Shown here: piece after piece, positions 6,446-35,620 of the stretch
Position numbering within the stretch: the first letter of the stretch is position 1
Layout of the letters: every line of letters starts with the position of its first letter
Assembly (NCBI GenBank): GCA_007121335.1
Contig: SKLY01000030.1
Span: 1 to 45,313, forward strand
Source: Saprospiraceae bacterium
GTDB lineage: Bacteria; Bacteroidota; Bacteroidia; Chitinophagales; Saprospiraceae
Direction: 5' to 3'
DNA length: 45,313 bases
Notes under the pieces: generated by a model
What the model saw: the letters and a program-made list of their open reading frames with translations, nothing else
What the model was told of the DNA's origin: nothing
Databases searched by the model: none
Position numbers and translations under genes: made by a program

Positions 6446-7168
6446 ATGGCAAAAACACTTTCTGTAATTATTCCCGCCTACAACGAGGAAAAAACGATCC
6501 TGGATATTCTCGAAGCCGTGAAGCTTGTAGTGCTTGACGGAGGATTTGACAAGGAGATTATTGTGGTGAATGATTGCAGTACGGATTCCACGGCTGCTTT
6601 AGTTGAGAAATTTCAGGCGGAAAATCCCAACCTGAGGTTGCTCCTCAAACACCAGGAGAAAAATATGGGCAAGGGGGCGGCATTGCACAGGGGTATTGCC
6701 GAGGCCAGCGGAGATTATTTAGTGATTCAGGATGCCGATTTGGAGTACGACCCCAGAGAGTACAATTTACTGCTTAAACCCATTATCGGAGGTCAGGCTG
6801 ATGTGGTTTACGGATCGAGATTCATGGGCGGGAATCCACACCGAATTCTGTTCTTTTGGCACTCGATCGGAAATAAGTTTTTGACCTTCTGCAGCAATAT
6901 GTTCACCAATCTCAACCTGACCGACATGGAGACCTGTTACAAGCTCTTCCGCGCGGATTTGATCAAGTCCCTGGATTTGAAGGAAAGGCGATTCGGTTTC
7001 GAACCTGAGGTGACGGCTAAGATATCAAGAATCAAAAAGGTCAGAATTTATGAAGTGGGCATAAGTTACTACGGCAGGACTTACGAAGAGGGCAAAAAAA
7101 TCGGATGGAGGGACGGATTTCGCGCCCTTTACTGCATTGCGAAGTACGGTCTGTTCCGGGCAAAATAA
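6446..7168 (+). CDS. Family 2 glycosyltransferase (dolichyl/polyprenyl-phosphate mannose synthase-like)
   Basis: This 240-residue GT-A enzyme opens with [14 protein letters not shown] (residues 5-18), has the nucleotide-binding VNDCSTDST (41-49), the [12 protein letters not shown] loop, the metal-binding DxD as QDADLEYDP (D96, D98), and the acceptor-site region MGGNPHR. Length and motifs match DPM1-type enzymes, which move a sugar from NDP-sugar to a polyprenyl phosphate at the cytoplasmic membrane face. No C-terminal transmembrane helices are present. The exact sugar cannot be read from sequence. It appears monocistronic, with a terminator-like hairpin 35 bases downstream. Confidence 0.9.
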
Positions 7169-12108: not shown

Positions 12109-14514
12109 CTAATGCGCGATCATCCTCTTCGACACTCTGCCGTAGGGAGTGATTAATTGGTAGTAGTAAATGCCGGGGGAGATATTTAGTTGGAGGGGGA
12201 TTTCATTGTAGCCGGCATCGTATTCGCCCTCTGTGGAGATCACTTCATTTCCATTGATGTCGATGATGCGGAGAGTGACAGTCGTTTTTTCGGGTAGATT
12301 GAAACCTATTGTGGTTTCTTGCTCGAAGGGGTTGGGTATGTTTTGAGCCAATTGCACCAATGTGCCCTGGGAGTCCGGTTTTATGGAACGGCCCTCCACT
12401 TCAATGGTTCCGCGGGCCACATCTTCGTGGCATTTCATGGGGGTGCCGGTTGTTGAAACGGTGTAATTAAAAGTGCCAACTTCTAAAGGGCTGCCACTTA
12501 TGGTGAATTCGACGCCGTCAAAAGTTCCGCTTATTCCCTCGGGCAAACCCCTGACCTCGACTTCTTCTGCATCTCCATCCAACCGATAGGTGATATTTTC
12601 AATGGGATTTTCAATGTACACCTTTTGAGTATCAGAGCCGGCTGCAGAGGTCAGACTTAGCTCACTGTGGTCGCAAGATGAGGTTATGTACATCAGGACT
12701 CCACGTCCGGTGGAGAATCCAGTATTTTCATCTGTAAAATAAAGTGACCATGTAAGGTCTCCATTGGAAGTATAATCGATGGTCCAGCTCTCACCCCCGT
12801 CCCTAGTACTCAAAATTTTATATAGACTGGATGCCCAGCCGTTATTGGCATCTGTGAAGTAAATGGATTCGAGGAATACTGAGGTGCCGGAATTTTGAGG
12901 ATTCCAGGTTTCTCCTCCATCATTCGTGTGTAAAATTGTACCGTCTCCACCCGATGCCCAACCTTTTTCCCCATCAATAAAATGAATGTCGGTGAGGGTT
13001 TTAGTGGTTCCCGAATTTTGAGGTGTCCAGGAGGATTCTCCCCCAACTTTCTTAGCCAATATGGTGCCTCCATCGCCAACTGCGTAACCCGTGTTTTTGT
13101 CCGTAAAAAATATGGACCTCAAAGAATTTGTGGTTCCGGAATGTTGTTTGTTCCAGGTCAGGCCACCGTCTTCTGTTTTAAAAATATCCCCTATAGAATT
13201 GGTAAACCACCCGGTATTTTTGTCCGCAAAGTAAATGGATTCAATCAAGGTCGTGGATTTAGTATGTCGTAGATACCAGGTTTGTCCCCCATCGGTGGTT
13301 GTAATTAGAACACCACTCCAGCCCGTCGTGGCCCATGCGGTATTTTTATCTACCGAATGCACATGGTCAAAACTACCAAAATAATAAGGATTGGTTGCGG
13401 TGCTTCTTTGAGCCTCCCAATTTAATCCGCCGTCACTGGTTTTAAAAAAGCCAGTATAATCAACTGCCCATCCGTGTTTCTCATCGGCAAAATGGATGTC
13501 CCTTAGGGTAGCTGCTTTTCGAGAAGCTATTTTGGTCCAGGATTTGCCTCTGTCAGTAGTGGTCATATAAGCTCCGCCACCTAAAAATCCTGTATTTTCA
13601 TCTGTGAAAAAGACTGAGTTGAGACCATACAAGGTTCCCGTGTCAATAATGGTCCAGGTCTCCCCGTCGTCATAGGTCGATAGTAATACTCCCTGAGCCC
13701 CTGATACCCACACGGAATTATCATCTGCAATATATATGGAAACTATATGATTTGTAACACCGGAATTTTGTGAAAGCCATGTTTCACCTCCGTCTCCGGT
13801 TTTAAGAATGGTACCATCATTTCCTACCGCCCATCCTGTATTTTCATCCCTAAATTCAACATCCAAAAGACGGGTGGATGTTCCTGAAAATTGTGTCGTC
13901 CAGGTTTCACCTCCATCAGTCGTATTCATTATTGTGCCATCCCATCCCACCGTCCATCCGGTCATCGCATCAGTAAAGTGGACAGAAAGAAAGTCATTGG
14001 ATGTTTCTAAAGTTTGTTTACTCCAATTTTCACCCCCGTCAGTGGTTTTCATCACAATACCATCCATTCCCACTGCAAAGCCTGTATTTTCGTCAATAAA
14101 ATAAACCGATCTCAATTCTCCTATCCGGCCTGAATCCTGCCGGGTCCAGTCTTTCCCACCATTTTCTGTGCCCCAAATGGATATTTCATTAGGTTCTACA
14201 AAAATTATACCTTCGCCTACTGCCCAACCTTTGTGGTTGTCAACAAAATGAATGTCCTCAAATCTGGTGTCTGGAAATTCGTGTATAACACTCCAATTAA
14301 GCCCTCCATTACTTGTACCCAAAATAGTTCTTCTGCAATGGGCCCATCCATGATCAAGGTCTGTGAAATGAATAGCATTCATGCCATTTTCATGCAGGAG
14401 ATTTCCCCCGGCCTCAAAATTGGATATCCATTCCTGGGCATTGGACTGGAAGGGGAGGAACAGCATGAGGAGGTATAAAACGGCACAGTGAAATCCTTTC
14501 ATCGGGAGTTTCAT
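12109..14514 (-). CDS. Secreted YCF48/Asp-box repeat protein with T9SS sorting domain
   Basis: This protein of about 800 residues has a signal peptide (LLMLFLPFQSNA|Q), then about 13 repeats of roughly 45 residues. Each repeat carries a DGGETW-like Asp-box and a second signature of the type IHFTDENTGWAVG, as in YCF48-like beta-propellers. After the repeats come an Ig-like domain (GLPEGISGTFDG) and a C-terminal type A T9SS sorting domain (NIPNPFEQETTIGF ... GIYYYQL). It should be exported through T9SS and attached at or released from the cell surface; the ligand is unknown. The start is taken at 14514; 14502 is also possible, while 14628 would put 40 polar residues ahead of the signal. It is a tandem paralogue of the next gene upstream. 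Confidence 0.85.
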   Translation of the reverse strand: MKLPMKGFHCAVLYLLMLFLPFQSNAQEWISNFEAGGNLLHENGMNAIHFTDLDHGWAHCRRTILGTSNGGLNWSVIHEFPDTRFEDIHFVDNHKGWAVGEGIIFVEPNEISIWGTENGGKDWTRQDSGRIGELRSVYFIDENTGFAVGMDGIVMKTTDGGENWSKQTLETSNDFLSVHFTDAMTGWTVGWDGTIMNTTDGGETWTTQFSGTSTRLLDVEFRDENTGWAVGNDGTILKTGDGGETWLSQNSGVTNHIVSIYIADDNSVWVSGAQGVLLSTYDDGETWTIIDTGTLYGLNSVFFTDENTGFLGGGAYMTTTDRGKSWTKIASRKAATLRDIHFADEKHGWAVDYTGFFKTSDGGLNWEAQRSTATNPYYFGSFDHVHSVDKNTAWATTGWSGVLITTTDGGQTWYLRHTKSTTLIESIYFADKNTGWFTNSIGDIFKTEDGGLTWNKQHSGTTNSLRSIFFTDKNTGYAVGDGGTILAKKVGGESSWTPQNSGTTKTLTDIHFIDGEKGWASGGDGTILHTNDGGETWNPQNSGTSVFLESIYFTDANNGWASSLYKILSTRDGGESWTIDYTSNGDLTWSLYFTDENTGFSTGRGVLMYITSSCDHSELSLTSAAGSDTQKVYIENPIENITYRLDGDAEEVEVRGLPEGISGTFDGVEFTISGSPLEVGTFNYTVSTTGTPMKCHEDVARGTIEVEGRSIKPDSQGTLVQLAQNIPNPFEQETTIGFNLPEKTTVTLRIIDINGNEVISTEGEYDAGYNEIPLQLNISPGIYYYQLITPYGRVSKRMIAH

Positions 14515-14635
14515 CTTACGGGATTTATTTTGAAGCATCGATTGTGAATTTTTTATACGAATAGATTCATGGATTTTAAAGAATGTCGATTTGACGGTAT
14601 GTTTAGCTGTTTTTGAAAATTTAACCAAAGCCCGT

Positions 14636-16669
14636 TCAATGGACTATCATCGGTCTGGAAAGATCCCCAAATGGGGTGCTTAATTGGTAAATATAAGTCC
14701 CGGCCGGAATAACCGGTTTAATCGTGATTTCATTGTCGCCTGCATCGAATCGCCTGACTATTTTCTTTACGGTAATTCCGTTTAAATCAGTGATTAGAAG
14801 AGAGACCGTTGCGGATTCCGGTATGTAAAAGTCAATGGTCGTGGATTTGTCAAATGGGTTTGGTGAGTTTTGTGACAGTCTTATTTCTTCCCGGTCACCG
14901 TCTGCCGATGGCTCTTCAACTACAATTGAGCCGGTTACAACCGCTTCTTCGCATGGATTGGCTGTACCGGTGGTAGTTACCGTATAATTAAAAACACCTG
15001 TTTCGCCGGGGCTGCCACTGATGATGAATTCATTGCCGTTCAGTGTGCCATTGACACCCAATGGGAGTCCTGTCACCTCAGCACCTGTCGCGAGACCACC
15101 CAGTTCGTATGTAATATACGATATGGGTGTTTCTAATTCGACAGTTTGCGAGTCAGTATCTGACGATGACGTGAGTGTAAGGGTTGTCCCGGTGCATGGG
15201 TATTCAGTATGCAATAAAATTTCGCCCCCTTGTGTAAAGGCCCAGCCTGTTTTTATATCTGTAAAGTATATGTCCAATATATTATTTGAGGTGCCTGAAT
15301 TTTGAGTGGTCCAGGTTTCTCCACCATCCGTTGTATTGATTATGGTACCAAATTCCCCTGCGGCCCATCCGTGTTTTTCGTCCACAAAGAAGACAGAACC
15401 AAGAACGTCGAACACTCCGGAGTTTTGAAGCCTCCAATTTCTCCCTCCATCATCGGTGGTAATTATGGTGCCATATTCGCCCACAGCCCAGCCGGTTTTG
15501 GAATCTATGAAATAAACAGACAACAAATAATTCACTGTGGCTGAGGTAGCAATTTTCCAGTTTTCGCCCCCATCCTCCGTTCTTAAGATATAGCCACTAC
15601 CTCCAACAGCCCACCCATTGTTTTTATCTGTAAAATGAACTGGAGCAAAGAATAGGTGTGGGAGTTCATCGAATTGAGTCGTCCAGGTTTCGCCGCCATC
15701 CGTTGAAGCTATTATTAAACCAAAATCCTCAACTACCCAACCATGCAGGGAATCTGCAAAATAAATATGTCTGGGTGAAATTGTGAGATTATTTCTAACT
15801 ACATTATAGGATTCCCAGTCATCTTTTGTGTAAATTATGTCCCCATTGCTCTCCATGCACCAAATGTAATCTCCGTGTTGAAGATCACAGGCAATCCAGG
15901 GTCCGCCACCGGCGATATTGACCCTGTTGGCGGTCCAGTTTTTGCCGCCATCGCTGGTTTCAAGTATAGAGGTATTGCGGGTTGCGATTCTTCCATTTAG
16001 GGAGTCCGTGAAATGAACAGCAATAAAATTTGAGTGGCTACCTCCGATTTTTTGGACCCAGTTTTCCCCACCATCTGTTGTGGTGAGGATGACGCCTCCA
16101 TTCCCAGCGATCCAGGCTGTGTTCTCATCAGTGACGTGTATGGAATTCAGCGCACGGTTTGTACCCGAATTGGTCGTGGTCCAGTTTTCTCCCCCGTCGT
16201 TTGTTGTCAAAACTCTTCCACTGTTGCCTATGGCCCAACCGTTATCCGGATCTGTAAAATAGATTGACCTTAAATTGTTCCCGGTTGTAGGATCGTGTAG
16301 GGACCAGTTTTCTCCACCATCCGTTGTTACCATTAGATCCCCATTGTCAAGTACTAACCAACCTTTATTGGAATCCAGGAAATGGACAGACCGACATGTA
16401 ATTAGATCTGAAATTTTTATGTTTTCCCAGTTTTCTCCACCGTCTTTTGTGAACTTTCCTCCTCTCTCGCCCACAGCCCATCCCCTTTCTGAATCCAAAA
16501 AGTGAACTGAATAAAATGTCTGAAAAATAGGAAATCCCAGTTGTTCAGTCCAGGTTTCTCCGCCATCATCGGTTGCCAAAATCAAGCCACCGTAACCTAC
16601 AGCCCATCCTCTGTACCGGTCGATAAATTGCATTGAATAAATAAACCTGCTCGACAGTGAATGCTGCAC
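14636..16669 (-). CDS. YCF48/Asp-box repeat protein with T9SS sorting domain, 3' fragment of a frameshifted gene
   Basis: This reading frame holds most of a second repeat protein: about 11 YCF48/Asp-box repeats (TTDGGENW, TSDGGKNW and similar), an Ig-like domain (GLPLGVNGTLNG) and a T9SS type A sorting domain (NSPNPFDKSTTIDF ... AGTYIYQL). It has no signal peptide; its apparent start at 16669 is only a GTG inside a repeat. The missing beginning lies directly upstream in another frame (16681-16998), separated by an apparent one-base deletion. The whole gene would span 14636-16998 and encode about 787 residues, close to its downstream paralogue. One repeat (TKDDWESY) has lost the usual Gly-Gly. 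Confidence 0.8.
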   Translation of the reverse strand: MQHSLSSRFIYSMQFIDRYRGWAVGYGGLILATDDGGETWTEQLGFPIFQTFYSVHFLDSERGWAVGERGGKFTKDGGENWENIKISDLITCRSVHFLDSNKGWLVLDNGDLMVTTDGGENWSLHDPTTGNNLRSIYFTDPDNGWAIGNSGRVLTTNDGGENWTTTNSGTNRALNSIHVTDENTAWIAGNGGVILTTTDGGENWVQKIGGSHSNFIAVHFTDSLNGRIATRNTSILETSDGGKNWTANRVNIAGGGPWIACDLQHGDYIWCMESNGDIIYTKDDWESYNVVRNNLTISPRHIYFADSLHGWVVEDFGLIIASTDGGETWTTQFDELPHLFFAPVHFTDKNNGWAVGGSGYILRTEDGGENWKIATSATVNYLLSVYFIDSKTGWAVGEYGTIITTDDGGRNWRLQNSGVFDVLGSVFFVDEKHGWAAGEFGTIINTTDGGETWTTQNSGTSNNILDIYFTDIKTGWAFTQGGEILLHTEYPCTGTTLTLTSSSDTDSQTVELETPISYITYELGGLATGAEVTGLPLGVNGTLNGNEFIISGSPGETGVFNYTVTTTGTANPCEEAVVTGSIVVEEPSADGDREEIRLSQNSPNPFDKSTTIDFYIPESATVSLLITDLNGITVKKIVRRFDAGDNEITIKPVIPAGTYIYQLSTPFGDLSRPMIVH

Positions 16670-31223: not shown

Positions 31224-31231
31224 TATATTTG
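31224..31231 (+). promoter_or_regulatory. -7 box (TATATTTG) before the glycosyltransferase-methyltransferase gene
   Basis: TATATTTG matches TAnnTTTG exactly, 28 bases before the ATG at 31260. The -33 region (ATTG at 31204-31207) is weak and slightly close. Confidence 0.65.
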
Positions 31232-31259: not shown

Positions 31260-32795
31260 ATGTCCGGGAGAGAAGGCCAACATAATGGACGCGACAGGCT
31301 GCTCATTTTTATAGTTGCCTACAATGCGGAGAAGCACATTTCCAAAGTGCTTGACCGGATACCCCGTTCCATTTTTGAGGATTATGATTACGAAATACTC
31401 ATTATTGATGATCACTCTGCTGACCGCACCTTTGAAGTGGCCCGTGAATACCGCCACTCCAACCCCGATCTCAACATAACGGTCCTTTTCAATCCCGATA
31501 ACCAGGGGTACGGTGGCAATCAAAAACTCGGTTATCGCTATGCCATCATCAATGGGTTTGACTATGTGGTACTGCTGCACGGAGACGGCCAGTACGCCCC
31601 GGAATATCTGGATAAAATGGTGGAGCCCCTTAAAGACGGAGGTCACCAGGCTGTTTTTGGCTCCAGGATGCTACGCAAAAAAGATGCTCTCAAAGGAGGG
31701 ATGCCACTTTATAAATTTGTGGGAAACATCATTCTCACCCGGCTTCAAAATTTGATTCTCGGTGCCGGGCTTTCGGAATTTCACTCCGGTTACAGGGCCT
31801 ATTCGGTGGAAGCACTCAGTGGACTCCCGATTGAGAGGAATTCCAATGATTTTGATTTTGACACCCAGATCATCATCCAGTTGTTATTGGCTCGGATGCA
31901 GATCGCCGAGATTCCCATTCCTACCTTCTACGGAGACGAAATATGCCATGTCAACGGCATAAAGTACGCCTGGAATGTGCTGGTGGCTTCGGTGCAGAGC
32001 AAATTGCACAGACTCAATTTATTTTACAAAATGGAGTACGACATCGACTCCGGAAAGATACCCTACACCCTGAAGCTGGGATATACGAGTTCGCACACCA
32101 TGGCCCTGGACCGCGTCCCCGACAACAGCAAGGTCCTCGATCTGGGAGCGGGCCCCGGTCTGATGGCTGGAGAGCTGCTCAAAAAAGGCTGTGAGATTAC
32201 CGGCCTGGATATGTACGACCAGGAAGAGAATATCAATTTCAACAAGTATATTAAGGGTAATCTCAATGCCCCGGATTTCAAAATAAAGATTGGCGACTAC
32301 GATCTCATCCTGATGTTGGACGTGATTGAGCACGTGGACGACCCCGAGCTGTTGATGGATTATATCCGAAAGCACATTCACCCTTCGCGCAAGCCATTTG
32401 TCATTCTTACAACTCCGAATATTGCTTTTTTCATTACCCGTCTGCAGTTGTTTTTCGGCAATTTTAACTACGGGAAAAAGGGGATACTCGACCAGACCCA
32501 CAAAAGGCTTTTTACGTTTGGAACACTAAAAAAGCTCTGTAATCAGACGGGATATAAAATCAGGAAAACCAGAGGCATACCGGCTCCCTATCCGGAGGCC
32601 ATTGGGTACAACTGGATATCCAGAATGCTTCTCGGCCTGAATAAAGGTTTGATCCGCATAAGCAAAAGACTTTTTTCCTACCAAATTTATATGGAATTGG
32701 AACCCACACCGGTAGTAGAAAACCTCCTTAAATACTCAATCGAACACAGCAGGGAAAAGGCTGAAAATATCCGCGACAGTCAAATTGCCAATTGA
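31260..32795 (+). CDS. Fusion of GT2 glycosyltransferase and SAM-dependent methyltransferase
   Basis: The 511-residue protein joins two enzymes. Residues about 12-255 are a GT-A glycosyltransferase like polyprenyl-phosphate mannose synthase: LLIFIVAYNAEKHI, IIDDHSADRT (48-57), and LLHGDGQYAPEY (105-116) at the metal-binding position. Residues about 285-500 are a class I methyltransferase with VLDLGAGPG (292-300) and DVIEHV (354-359), and a conserved QTHKRLFTF loop. No strong transmembrane segment is present. The first half could charge a polyprenyl phosphate with a sugar; the second could methylate the sugar or another acceptor. It is followed directly by a GT-C enzyme gene, a typical user of such lipid-linked sugars. 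Confidence 0.9.
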   Translation: MSGREGQHNGRDRLLIFIVAYNAEKHISKVLDRIPRSIFEDYDYEILIIDDHSADRTFEVAREYRHSNPDLNITVLFNPDNQGYGGNQKLGYRYAIINGFDYVVLLHGDGQYAPEYLDKMVEPLKDGGHQAVFGSRMLRKKDALKGGMPLYKFVGNIILTRLQNLILGAGLSEFHSGYRAYSVEALSGLPIERNSNDFDFDTQIIIQLLLARMQIAEIPIPTFYGDEICHVNGIKYAWNVLVASVQSKLHRLNLFYKMEYDIDSGKIPYTLKLGYTSSHTMALDRVPDNSKVLDLGAGPGLMAGELLKKGCEITGLDMYDQEENINFNKYIKGNLNAPDFKIKIGDYDLILMLDVIEHVDDPELLMDYIRKHIHPSRKPFVILTTPNIAFFITRLQLFFGNFNYGKKGILDQTHKRLFTFGTLKKLCNQTGYKIRKTRGIPAPYPEAIGYNWISRMLLGLNKGLIRISKRLFSYQIYMELEPTPVVENLLKYSIEHSREKAENIRDSQIAN

Positions 32796-32809
32796 AAACC
32801 GAACAGCCA

Positions 32810-35620
32810 ATGACTAAGAAAGGAAGTAAAAAGAGAAAGGGAAATGTAGCCGGGAAGCGTGCAAAAAAAGGATTGGGTATTCAGTTGATAGTGATGGCAG
32901 AGTCTTTTTCTCCGAAGGATTTCAAAATGTTTCGACCCGCCTTTTCTCTTTTTCAGGGGTCTGAAAACAACTGTCTCTGCATGAGGTCAAATGAGGACCC
33001 CGCCGGAAGTCTCAGCGGTGAACTCGATAATTTAAAGGTTTCGGTTTTTAGTGGTGAATCCGCTCGTGGTGATTTAAATGCTTCACTTGAAAAAGGGGAA
33101 GAAAACGCCCCGGTCCTCTTTATTGACAAGGATAGAATCAAAGGGACTGTGAATTGGAAAAGCCTCGCCGGAAAGCTCTCCTCCACAGATATCAACAGTC
33201 GTCCGGGATGGGTTCTTTCAGGTTCCGGAGAAAAAGCGGGTCTTTTAGCGCCTTTTGTAATCGCTGAAAACCGGATTGCTCATTTTGCAATCAATAAATC
33301 TGAGGACATTTTTGACGACAACCCCGTCGATATTGTATCGGACGAGGTGTTGATGCGCTATCCCGATGCTCAACTTGAAACCGATTCCTTTATTTCCGGC
33401 GTGATTGAATCGATATCCCGACCTGGGTGGCGAAAGAAGATAAATTTTTTGAGCCGTGATGCAGTGCGGGAGTGGAAGCGCAAAATTTTGCCCCCCTTGT
33501 CGATTGGAGGAGAGAGTCCACTTTTCAGATTGGCTTTTGTCAGCCTTCTGGTAGTTGCCTTTTTCGGGATGACCATTTTGAGTCAGAATGCCGGTATATC
33601 CGGGGATGAGTACAGGTATTTGGATCAGGCAGAGCGCGTTTACAACTACTACGCCACTTTTGGCTCGGATAAGGCAGCAGTTTCACAGACCGGCATTGAC
33701 CCACAGCACTACAATGCCCAGACATTTGACAACTTCCTTTACACCGTCCAAAAGTGGGTGGGAATGCCGGCTGACTCCTTCGGTTTCAGGCACTTCTGGA
33801 ATGCAGTGTTGGGGTGGTTGGCGATTTTGCTCACAGGCTTAATTGCATTGAGACTGGGCGGAGGCTACAGGATGGCATTCGTGGTTTGCCTCCTTCTTCT
33901 ACTCTCGCCGCGTTTTTTGGGGCATGCTTACAACAACCACCGGGATATACCGATGGCTACGGCAGTCTTGTTTGCCTTTTACTGGATGATCCCTTTTTTG
34001 AGATCTCTTCCGAGGATAAACAAGAAAGCTGCCATCTGGGTGATTGTCGGAATTGCATCAGCATTTAGTTTGAGACTTGGAGGTGGAGTGTTACTGGCTG
34101 GCTATCTGGTGTTTTTTGCCGGGATATTTTACGCACTCAGATTCCCCGTTAAGATGTGGTTTGCATCGGATAATCTCGCTGTGGCTGGAAAAATGGCAGG
34201 TTACTCTTTAGTTTTGGCGGGTATTGGTTGGGGAATCAGTTTGCTGTTTTGGCCCTTTGGACTGGAGGCCCCAATTCGACACAGTCTTGAAGTACTGGAC
34301 GCCACGGGAGATATCGGCGTGAGTCTGAGACAGGTGTTTGAGGGGGAGGAGTTGTTCTCTTCCGCCATGCCCTGGTACTACGTGTTGCGGTACATGCAAC
34401 TCACGATCCCCCTGATTGTTCTGGCTGGATTTGCTGCCGGCCTTGCATTTGTCAGGGATTTTACGGACAGGCACAATCTTCCTGTTATACTGATGGTGGT
34501 GGCTGCTATCGTTTTGCCTCTGTATTACGCCTGCTTTATGACCACCAATCACTACGGAGGTTGGCGCCACTTTATCTTTGTGTATCCGTTTATTGTACTT
34601 TTTGCAGGCATGGGGATAGAGGGTTTACTGCGGAAAATGAACCAGAAGATTGCAAAAGCAGGAATTTGGGTGGTGATTGCGCTGGGGTTGGCATTGCCGC
34701 TAAGGTTTATTGTGCAGAATCACCCCTATGAGTATATTTATTACAACGAACTGATCGGTGGAACCGGGGGTGCTGCCGGCTATTATGAATTGGACTATTC
34801 GATGATTTCTCTTCGCGAGACCTCCAACTGGCTGATAGAAAATGTGGTGGAAGGTCACCGGGGAGAGGATAAACTGAGAATTGCCACCAATGACAGGCGG
34901 GCTTCAATGTATTATTTTAGAGACTATTTGGATGTAGTGGAAATTGTGTACACCCGTTACTATGAAAAATCTGAGGCAGATTGGGATTATGCGACTTTCT
35001 ATTCTTCTTTTATTGCACCTTTTCAAATCAGAAACGGGCTATGGCCACCTCATGAGGCGATTTACTATGCGGAGGTTGACGGGGCAATAGTGGGTGCAGT
35101 TATCAGACGTGTCTCCAAGGAGGATTATAAGGGACATCAAAAACTCCGCGAGGGCAATCCAGTCGAGGCACTGGTCCACTTCTCCAATTACCTGGAAAAA
35201 GATCCGAATAACGCAGAAGTTTGGACGGCAATGGCAGATGCATATATGTTTCTGGAACTGTATGAAGCAACCATTTCTGCGGCGCAAACTGCCTTAACCC
35301 TTTTGCCCGATTATGGCCCTGTGCTGGAATTAAAGGGAGGAGCCCTTTTGAATACAGGAGAATACGAGGCGGCTGTCTCCGCTTTTCAAGCGGTTTTGGA
35401 GGACATGCCTCATAACTACATGATACATTACTACAAGGCAGCTGCCCTCTTCAGAATGGGGGAATACCACCAGGCCATAGATGCAGCCACCATGTCACTC
35501 GGCTACAATCCCAATTTTCAACTTCCATACAGATTGCTGGCTGAGTGCTATGTCGCTATTGGGGATCACGCTTCCGCAGACCGCATAATGAGGGTCCTTG
35601 AGGAGCGACTGGGTGAGTAG
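32810..35620 (+). CDS. GT-C (GT39/PMT-like) membrane glycosyltransferase with unknown N-terminal domain and C-terminal TPRs
   Basis: The 936-residue protein has three parts. Residues 1 to about 225 are soluble and unrecognised, starting with a very basic Lys/Arg-rich tail. From about 226 to 640 there are about ten transmembrane helices; the first loop carries the GT-C metal/catalytic motif SGDEYRYLDQ (D266, E267) and YNNHRDIPMA. A loop domain follows, and about 765-936 form four or five TPR units. GT-C enzymes take a sugar from a polyprenyl-phosphate donor and add it to protein, lipid or glycan outside the membrane. ATG 32810 is chosen; a TTG at 32792 would overlap the preceding stop. The preceding GT2 fusion probably supplies the donor. 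Confidence 0.85.
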   Translation: MTKKGSKKRKGNVAGKRAKKGLGIQLIVMAESFSPKDFKMFRPAFSLFQGSENNCLCMRSNEDPAGSLSGELDNLKVSVFSGESARGDLNASLEKGEENAPVLFIDKDRIKGTVNWKSLAGKLSSTDINSRPGWVLSGSGEKAGLLAPFVIAENRIAHFAINKSEDIFDDNPVDIVSDEVLMRYPDAQLETDSFISGVIESISRPGWRKKINFLSRDAVREWKRKILPPLSIGGESPLFRLAFVSLLVVAFFGMTILSQNAGISGDEYRYLDQAERVYNYYATFGSDKAAVSQTGIDPQHYNAQTFDNFLYTVQKWVGMPADSFGFRHFWNAVLGWLAILLTGLIALRLGGGYRMAFVVCLLLLLSPRFLGHAYNNHRDIPMATAVLFAFYWMIPFLRSLPRINKKAAIWVIVGIASAFSLRLGGGVLLAGYLVFFAGIFYALRFPVKMWFASDNLAVAGKMAGYSLVLAGIGWGISLLFWPFGLEAPIRHSLEVLDATGDIGVSLRQVFEGEELFSSAMPWYYVLRYMQLTIPLIVLAGFAAGLAFVRDFTDRHNLPVILMVVAAIVLPLYYACFMTTNHYGGWRHFIFVYPFIVLFAGMGIEGLLRKMNQKIAKAGIWVVIALGLALPLRFIVQNHPYEYIYYNELIGGTGGAAGYYELDYSMISLRETSNWLIENVVEGHRGEDKLRIATNDRRASMYYFRDYLDVVEIVYTRYYEKSEADWDYATFYSSFIAPFQIRNGLWPPHEAIYYAEVDGAIVGAVIRRVSKEDYKGHQKLREGNPVEALVHFSNYLEKDPNNAEVWTAMADAYMFLELYEATISAAQTALTLLPDYGPVLELKGGALLNTGEYEAAVSAFQAVLEDMPHNYMIHYYKAAALFRMGEYHQAIDAATMSLGYNPNFQLPYRLLAECYVAIGDHASADRIMRVLEERLGE

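Follow-up and report, generated by a model that had tools for sequence, protein, structure and literature searches.

The window analyzed here, a 45,313-nucleotide stretch from a Saprospiraceae bacterium, carries two adjacent genes that on balance probably form a donor-synthase/transferase module, through which a lipid-carried and perhaps methylated sugar would be transferred outside the inner membrane. Gene A fuses a GT2 domain to a methyltransferase, and gene B is predicted to encode a GT-C enzyme with C-terminal TPRs. The pair is a real, conserved variant of lipid-phosphate-sugar glycosylation built from little-studied families; surface glycosylation, a methylated sugar and TPRs that bind protein targets are what we infer for it.

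Organization of the gene pair

The locus contains the following features.

31224..31231, + strand: Bacteroidota-type promoter box TATATTTG, 36 nt 5' of the gene A ATG
31260..32795, + strand: gene A, GT2 and class I methyltransferase fusion, 511 aa, ATG start (ORF list, Pfam, model)
31296..32024, + strand: gene A GT2 domain, about aa 13-255, predicted polyprenyl-phosphate-sugar synthase fold (Pfam, model, residues)
32025..32792, + strand: gene A methyltransferase domain, about aa 256-511, with SAM motif VLDLGAGPG at aa 292-300 (Pfam, model, 3cc8)
32810..35620, + strand: gene B, N-terminal domain, GT-C core and TPRs, 936 aa counted from the ATG
32810..33475, + strand: gene B N-terminal alpha/beta domain, aa 1-222, probably cytoplasmic (model)
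33476..35104, + strand: gene B predicted GT-C membrane core and following region, aa 223-765, about 11 membrane spans (model)
35105..35617, + strand: gene B C-terminal TPRs, aa 766-936, predicted periplasmic (Pfam, model)

The ORF coordinates bear out the positions of both genes and the 14 bases that the initial annotation placed between them. This gap is measured from gene A to the first ATG of gene B at 32810; the longest frame of gene B begins at a TTG (32792), 18 nt before the ATG, and overlaps the gene A stop. The longest frame of the G004 homologue begins at the equivalent ATG.

The promoter box is likely common to both genes. Each of the eight genus members (G000-G007) has a single TAnnTTTG between -33 and -54 ahead of gene A, retained despite unlike flanking genes, with a background in the window of 0.046 per 100 nt of one strand. 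In the window the box is TATATTTG at -36, in line with the earlier claim of a shared box. A -33 element to go with it is not evident by eye. The motif is absent from the 180 nt before the gene A homologues of G030 and G044, and in G085 it precedes the fusion only at -78.

Linkage in Bacteroidota

Full-length fusions are present in 9 of 60 genomes, the window genome counted, and a further one, in G005, is truncated at the end of its contig. An even draw of 396 genomes from the order, searched at E ≤ 1e-58, returns seven matches, comprising six full fusions and the GT2 part alone in G253. This last protein (L107:8184-8957) is 55% identical to the gene A GT2 and has no methyltransferase; by its sequence, it is a split or pre-fusion form.

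Twelve Bacteroidota fusions are evaluable for linkage (G000-G004, G006, G007, G030, G044, G085 (locus L113), L114 and L115). Gene B lies directly downstream on the same strand in nine of them, with gaps of 5 to 160 nt, and the initial annotation's check for genes unlinked in most relatives thus comes out in favor of the pair. The pairing persists in at least four different gene contexts: genes for a pirin and a redox protein flank the pair in the window and in G002, G003 and G004, and other genes do so in G001/G006, G007 and G030. Chance adjacency is ruled out, because the pair and its promoter box stay together across gene contexts.

The gene A homologue of G044 has no adjacent GT-C and is neighbored by a small ORF that we take to be DUF2200-like; no gene B match is found anywhere in that genome. 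The same holds at 1e-20 for G005, a genome that is 85% complete and in which gene A runs off the contig. Beside the L115 fusion lies a multi-span protein of 697 aa that matches PMT_2 below the threshold. In G085, the fusion is flanked by two unrelated multi-span proteins in place of gene B. These two (L113:675-2039 and L113:3575-5071) have no Pfam match, one carries a DE motif, and by sequence they are possibly unrecognized GT-C enzymes.

Gene A

Pfam places PF00535 at aa 16-186 of gene A (1.4e-24) and PF13489 at aa 285-435 (1.5e-16). The AlphaFold2 model has two domains with a mean pLDDT of 91.9 (62 sequences). Foldseek ranks the putative methyltransferase 3cc8 first, followed at ranks 2-15 by ArnC, the Pyrococcus dolichyl-phosphate-mannose synthase and GtrB; glucosyl-3-phosphoglycerate synthase is matched as well. 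Judged by this model, the GT2 domain has the fold of a polyprenyl-phosphate-sugar synthase, and Pfam and the predicted structure agree with the synthase-like domain and methyltransferase that had been read from the sequence. No membrane span is predicted in gene A, where the highest 19-residue hydropathy is 1.42.

The GT2 domain does not carry the canonical DxD metal motif and has H-x-D-x-Q in its place. The motif H107-G-D109-G-Q111 (window 31578-31592) aligns with D-A-D-L-Q of the archaeal mannose synthase. Residues His107, Asp109, Arg136 and Asp201 are found in 81 of 81 fusions, Asp50 and Asp55 in 80 of 81, and Gln111 in 79 of 81, with Lys instead in two. Six standalone relatives have HPDYQ. 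From these alignments, replacement of the first Asp of DxD by His is the mark of the GT2 subfamily to which gene A belongs.

The second domain of the window protein has the features of a class I methyltransferase, namely the Rossmann fold, SAM motif I and acidic motif II. Asp354 and Glu357 are kept in 81 of 81 fusions, Gly296 and Asp317 in 78 and Asp294 in 71. The G030 fusion (L046:9283-10764) has lost Asp294 and Asp317, retaining the domain and its C-terminal motif; this is perhaps a dead domain retained for structure. The check on catalytic residues of the GT2 and GT-C parts suggested in the initial annotation comes out in favor of the pair, as the GT2 residues and the GT-C aspartate (see below) are conserved.

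The fusion family across phyla

Gene A is a full-length member of a family that we take to be the one named 'bifunctional glycosyltransferase/class I SAM-dependent methyltransferase' among NCBI products. Within the best 80 of its 183 relatives, members outside Bacteroidota are 47-54% identical to gene A and come from Verrucomicrobiota, Acidobacteriota, Pseudomonadota, Cyanobacteriota/Melainabacteria, Myxococcota, Bdellovibrionota, Chlorobiota and others; the domain order is uniform in all 80 loci. A FastTree of 82 fusions places the 11 Bacteroidota rows in one group (local support 99). By sequence comparison, the fusion is an old and widespread family. A recent invention in the window lineage is ruled out by the 183 relatives in genome_contigs. 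The novelty assigned earlier to the gene pair must be divided: no described system with this exact pair was found in the open-licence literature, but the fusion itself is widespread and not peculiar to the pair.

The neighbors of the fusion were surveyed in the best 80 of the 183 loci by longest-ORF gene calls and a hydrophobicity count, so that some of the ORFs are likely to be false frames on the antisense strand; the set is weighted toward Verrucomicrobiota, and several loci stop near the fusion. At least one multi-span ORF lies beside the fusion in 51 of the 80 loci, and none in 29. Among ORFs of at least 300 aa in these 80 loci, 62 of 122 that adjoin the fusion are multi-span, against 28/79 two away, 12/71 three away and 29/155 four or more away. 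With the nine Bacteroidota loci left out, the figures are 51/108 adjoining and 27/148 distant, and 42/71 loci have such a neighbor. The 62 multi-span neighbors form 33 sequence clusters, and seven of them are gene B itself; 40 are on the fusion strand, 31 of these within 60 nt. Only the Bacteroidota branch, among these best 80 of 183 loci, pairs the fusion with the B family. The tie between the fusion and multi-span membrane proteins across phyla appears real on these counts.

Whether these neighbors are GT-C enzymes is less directly read from Pfam. In the same best 80 of 183 loci, PMT_2 is not enriched beside the fusion (13/62 multi-span neighbors vs 7/29 in the distant control). PMT is found in 11 of the 62, possibly overlapping PMT_2 and with some possibly gene B, and it is absent among the 25 families listed for the distant multi-span control. 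A crude acidic-pair motif follows the first span in 35/62 neighbors vs 9/29 distant controls. Since PMT_2 is not enriched, it is this rough motif and PMT that link the fusion across phyla to GT-C enzymes specifically. Ten neighbors scanned singly give PMT or PMT_2 in four (three over the cut-off), DUF7657 in one and nothing in five. Many of the multi-span neighbors are probably GT-C enzymes when taken together, not family by family.

No plasmid record matches gene A at 1e-60. At 1e-15 there are 37 matches, none spanning 80% of gene A; the 20 of these that are listed lie over the GT2 part, with H6 extending into the methyltransferase start.

Gene B

Pfam recognizes the TPRs of gene B (3.6e-15), and PMT (PF02366) stays below the Pfam cut-off (18 bits vs 22.7, E = 0.0022). 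The profile of the gene B core finds no GT-C among the sequences of solved structures. On these two results, gene B was rejected as a plain PMT or ArnT. The core of the model (mean pLDDT 69, eight sequences) aligns by VIA-align, over residues 233-666, with an archaeal AglB (3waj) at Z = 26.2 (340 residues, 3.7 Å), and with STT3 of the eukaryotic oligosaccharyltransferase (Z ~26), Pmt4 (23) and ArnT (22); the range including PglB is 20-26. The TPRs (765-936) match MamA by structure. Gene B is thus of the GT-C fold as far as its model tells, and the TPRs from Pfam and the predicted core support the earlier description of a GT-C enzyme with C-terminal TPRs. That description had overlooked the N-terminal domain of about 222 aa, which the VIA-align rows, spanning residues 233-666 and 765-936, barely cover.

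Asp266, in a GDE motif of the first outer loop, is invariant in 27 of 27 cores. Eleven spans were picked by hand from the model; loops one (65 aa) and seven (54 aa) are long, and Lys and Arg are abundant in the N-terminal flank. With these 11 spans the C-terminus and TPRs come out on the outside; from the charges, we infer that the Asp266 loop is on the outer side. A second B-type GT-C is present in the window genome on contig C222 (L052), its start cut by the contig end. A plasmid search with the gene B core and TPRs gives two weak Azospirillum matches annotated 'glycosyltransferase family 39'.

Shuffled fusions among relatives of gene B

At E ≤ 1e-20, GT-C relatives of gene B are present in 36 of 60 genomes, counting that of the window. 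The A-B pair is missing from 28 of these 36, and wide contexts were taken from 20 of the 28. Eight of these 20 relatives have an intact GT2 at the N-terminus (LTLDADM or close), one has a degraded GT2 (L085) and eleven have none. An ORF with a methyltransferase motif is located no more than two ORFs from the B relative in 11 of 20 loci (10 on the same strand), compared with 0 of 119 ORFs farther away; the far control counts all ORFs of at least 150 aa, and the motif was sought only in ORFs of 150-420 aa. Ten of the 12 candidates were checked against Pfam, and all ten pass the methyltransferase cut-off.

On these counts, GT2, methyltransferase and GT-C recur together in two fusion layouts. Such recombined parts suggest that the three work together, and they provide a simple rule for spotting unrecognized GT-C partners of GT2-methyltransferase genes. 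Of the module arrangement proposed at first, the A-B pairing stands; relatives that carry the GT2 on the GT-C, with the methyltransferase as a gene of its own, had been missed. By sequence, the window lineage seems to have replaced the built-in GT2 of gene B with the GT2 of the fusion. Descent of the gene A GT2 from the GT2 fused to B relatives is not supported, as standalone GT2s are closer (about 40% identity, 135-164 bits); only 5 of 8 GT2-GT-C domains match it, at best with 30.5 bits. We also note three large proteins near B relatives that look TMEM260-like by eye (L085:10062-13085, L096:3519-6902 and L102:1838-4876).

The N-terminal domain of gene B may be a relic of such a GT2, which is possible and to us slightly the more probable reading. 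The other reading, an unrelated and fast-evolving cytoplasmic domain, is a serious one to which we give a little less than even chances. It is favored by hhalign probabilities of only 2.7-2.9% against intact GT2 domains, and by the low identity of the domain to five of six other family members (13-20%; 80% to the sixth). Against it, the probability rises to 27.8% once the degraded GT2 of L085 is added (L085 alone scores 96.8%), and neither hhalign score is reached in 200 column shuffles, with the reversed control lower too. In the GT-C tree, the window clade groups at 97/91 with the eight GT2-bearing proteins and L085, though the domain-less L095 is there too; the other side of the tree holds 11 rows labeled as lacking the N-terminal domain, among them L052 with its cut start. 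By eye, strands and helices of the N-terminal model also follow an order like that in the first half of a GT-A fold.

Proposed mechanism and alternatives

In the module that we favor, the gene A GT2 would load a sugar from its nucleotide onto undecaprenyl phosphate in the cytoplasm, and the methyltransferase part would methylate the sugar, either ahead of loading or afterwards. Turning the lipid-linked sugar over would fall to a flippase, which is probably not GtrA. Gene B, with the presumed catalytic Asp266 in its first outer loop, would then pass the sugar to a periplasmic acceptor, which its TPRs may select or hold; a protein is a plausible acceptor, as it is for the TMTC proteins of animals. 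The GT2-methyltransferase fusion would supply the window lineage with a different GT2, and the N-terminal domain of gene B may be the remains of the old one.

The methylation step has another possible explanation. The donor/transferase pair could be real and the methyltransferase could act on another glycan or on the finished product, or be structural, so that no methylated donor is made. G030 points this way, as it retains the fusion and gene B despite the loss of Asp294 and Asp317, as do the presence of Asp294 in only 71/81 fusions and the fact that the methyltransferase near B relatives is a separate gene of varying type. We nevertheless consider this explanation rather unlikely, given Gly296 and Asp317 in 78/81 fusions, Asp354 and Glu357 in 81/81 and the same domain order in all 80 loci (best 80 of 183). 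The synthase role could also be mistaken, with the gene A GT2 extending a cytoplasmic lipid-linked glycan for a polysaccharide or LPS and the adjacency of gene B reflecting a common pathway instead of donor supply. Some GT2 enzymes of related fold do use soluble acceptors, glucosyl-3-phosphoglycerate synthase being matched by gene A, and the first Asp of DxD is His in 81/81 fusions. This seems improbable to us, because the GT2 is structurally closest to ArnC, the mannose synthase and GtrB, the scanned window ORFs include no further glycan-assembly gene except the GT2 at 6446, and GT2 is fused straight to GT-C in B relatives.

The nature of the acceptor is much more evenly disputed. A lipid or polysaccharide acceptor for gene B, with TPRs that bind a partner enzyme or secretion machinery, is quite possible, if not the reading that we would choose. 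ArnT acts on lipid A. The Gtr and GT136 GT-C enzymes described in the relevant part of PMC11127046 act on O-antigen. Conversely, the closest folds, AglB, STT3 and Pmt4, act on proteins, although the fold does not decide the acceptor, and C-terminal TPRs placed behind an 11-span GT-C core are the arrangement of the TMTC protein O-mannosyltransferases, according to PMC7801869. The boldest version of our preferred module is a bacterial TMTC-like protein glycosylation with a methylated sugar, whose parts have been repeatedly re-fused, whose own synthase domain degenerated into a docking domain once an unrelated GT2-methyltransferase had taken its place in the window lineage, and whose periplasmic TPRs choose protein targets. 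As a whole it is a speculative picture that we would expect to fail in some part. If it were true, the fusion family would supply methylated polyprenyl-phosphate sugars generally in bacteria, to many GT-Cs that are unrelated to one another.

Comparison with known systems

ArnC/ArnT has in common with the A-B pair the GT2 and GT-C folds and the undecaprenyl-phosphate sugar logic, a similarity at the level of the fold only. ArnC is itself a membrane-spanning protein and lacks a methyltransferase, and ArnT has no TPRs; by comparison, gene A has no predicted span and gene B carries TPRs. Three-component glycosylation systems with a GT-C enzyme are established, as outlined in part of PMC11127046. 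Like A-B, these (GtrB/GtrA/Gtr and the C. youngae type with GT136) encode a synthase and a GT-C together. They differ in that the A-B synthase is fused to a methyltransferase and gene B adds the N-terminal domain and TPRs; the account of such systems in that portion of PMC11127046 includes no synthase-methyltransferase fusion. GtrA (PF04138) has no match in the window genome, which is 92.9% complete. A modified sugar also travels via decaprenyl phosphate to a GT-C in the methylthioxylose capping of mycobacterial lipoarabinomannan, as treated in the same portion of the source (PMC11127046), where the modification differs in going through a nucleoside precursor with no fused methyltransferase.

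In TMTC proteins, the first of about 11 spans is followed by an acidic motif, spans 7 and 8 are separated by a long loop, and the C-terminal TPRs lie on the outer side; they have full-length prokaryotic look-alikes that are uncharacterized, according to the passages on topology and distribution in PMC7801869. Gene B, from its model, looks to be built like TMTC: it shares with TMTC1-4, as portrayed in those passages, the GT-C core with its acidic motif, some 11 spans as picked by hand, the long seventh loop and the C-terminal TPRs. It is unlike TMTC in its extra N-terminal domain and in being paired with a GT2-methyltransferase gene. Pfam finds no DUF1736 match in gene B at E ≤ 1, and for this reason gene B is not filed as TMTC. 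In the open-licence literature, no paper was found on the GT2-methyltransferase fusion or the A-B pair, and nothing on a methylated Bacteroidota glycan pathway.

If our reading of the pair is right, the function of gene A would extend to a fusion family of many phyla and would reveal whether sugars are methylated in bacteria while on the lipid carrier. Gene B would serve as a bacterial model for TPR-bearing GT-C enzymes, whose animal counterparts modify cadherins.

Genomic surroundings

The 28 further window ORFs scanned are mostly housekeeping or envelope genes (among them LptD, TsaD, M3 peptidase, ABC transporters and Ccm-like proteins), and no polysaccharide cluster is recognized among them. 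A second GT2 at 6446-7168 of the window is 26% identical to the gene A GT2 and by eye resembles the dolichyl-phosphate-mannose-synthase type. Two large minus-strand proteins with BNR/YCF48-like repeats lie at 12109-16669, one with a Por secretion tail; they are candidates for the outer surface and unrelated to the A-B pair. Elsewhere in the window genome there is a single TMEM260-like protein (G000:C70:17154-17702, L188; PF11028, E = 1.1e-61), whose name connects it with another animal O-mannosyltransferase.
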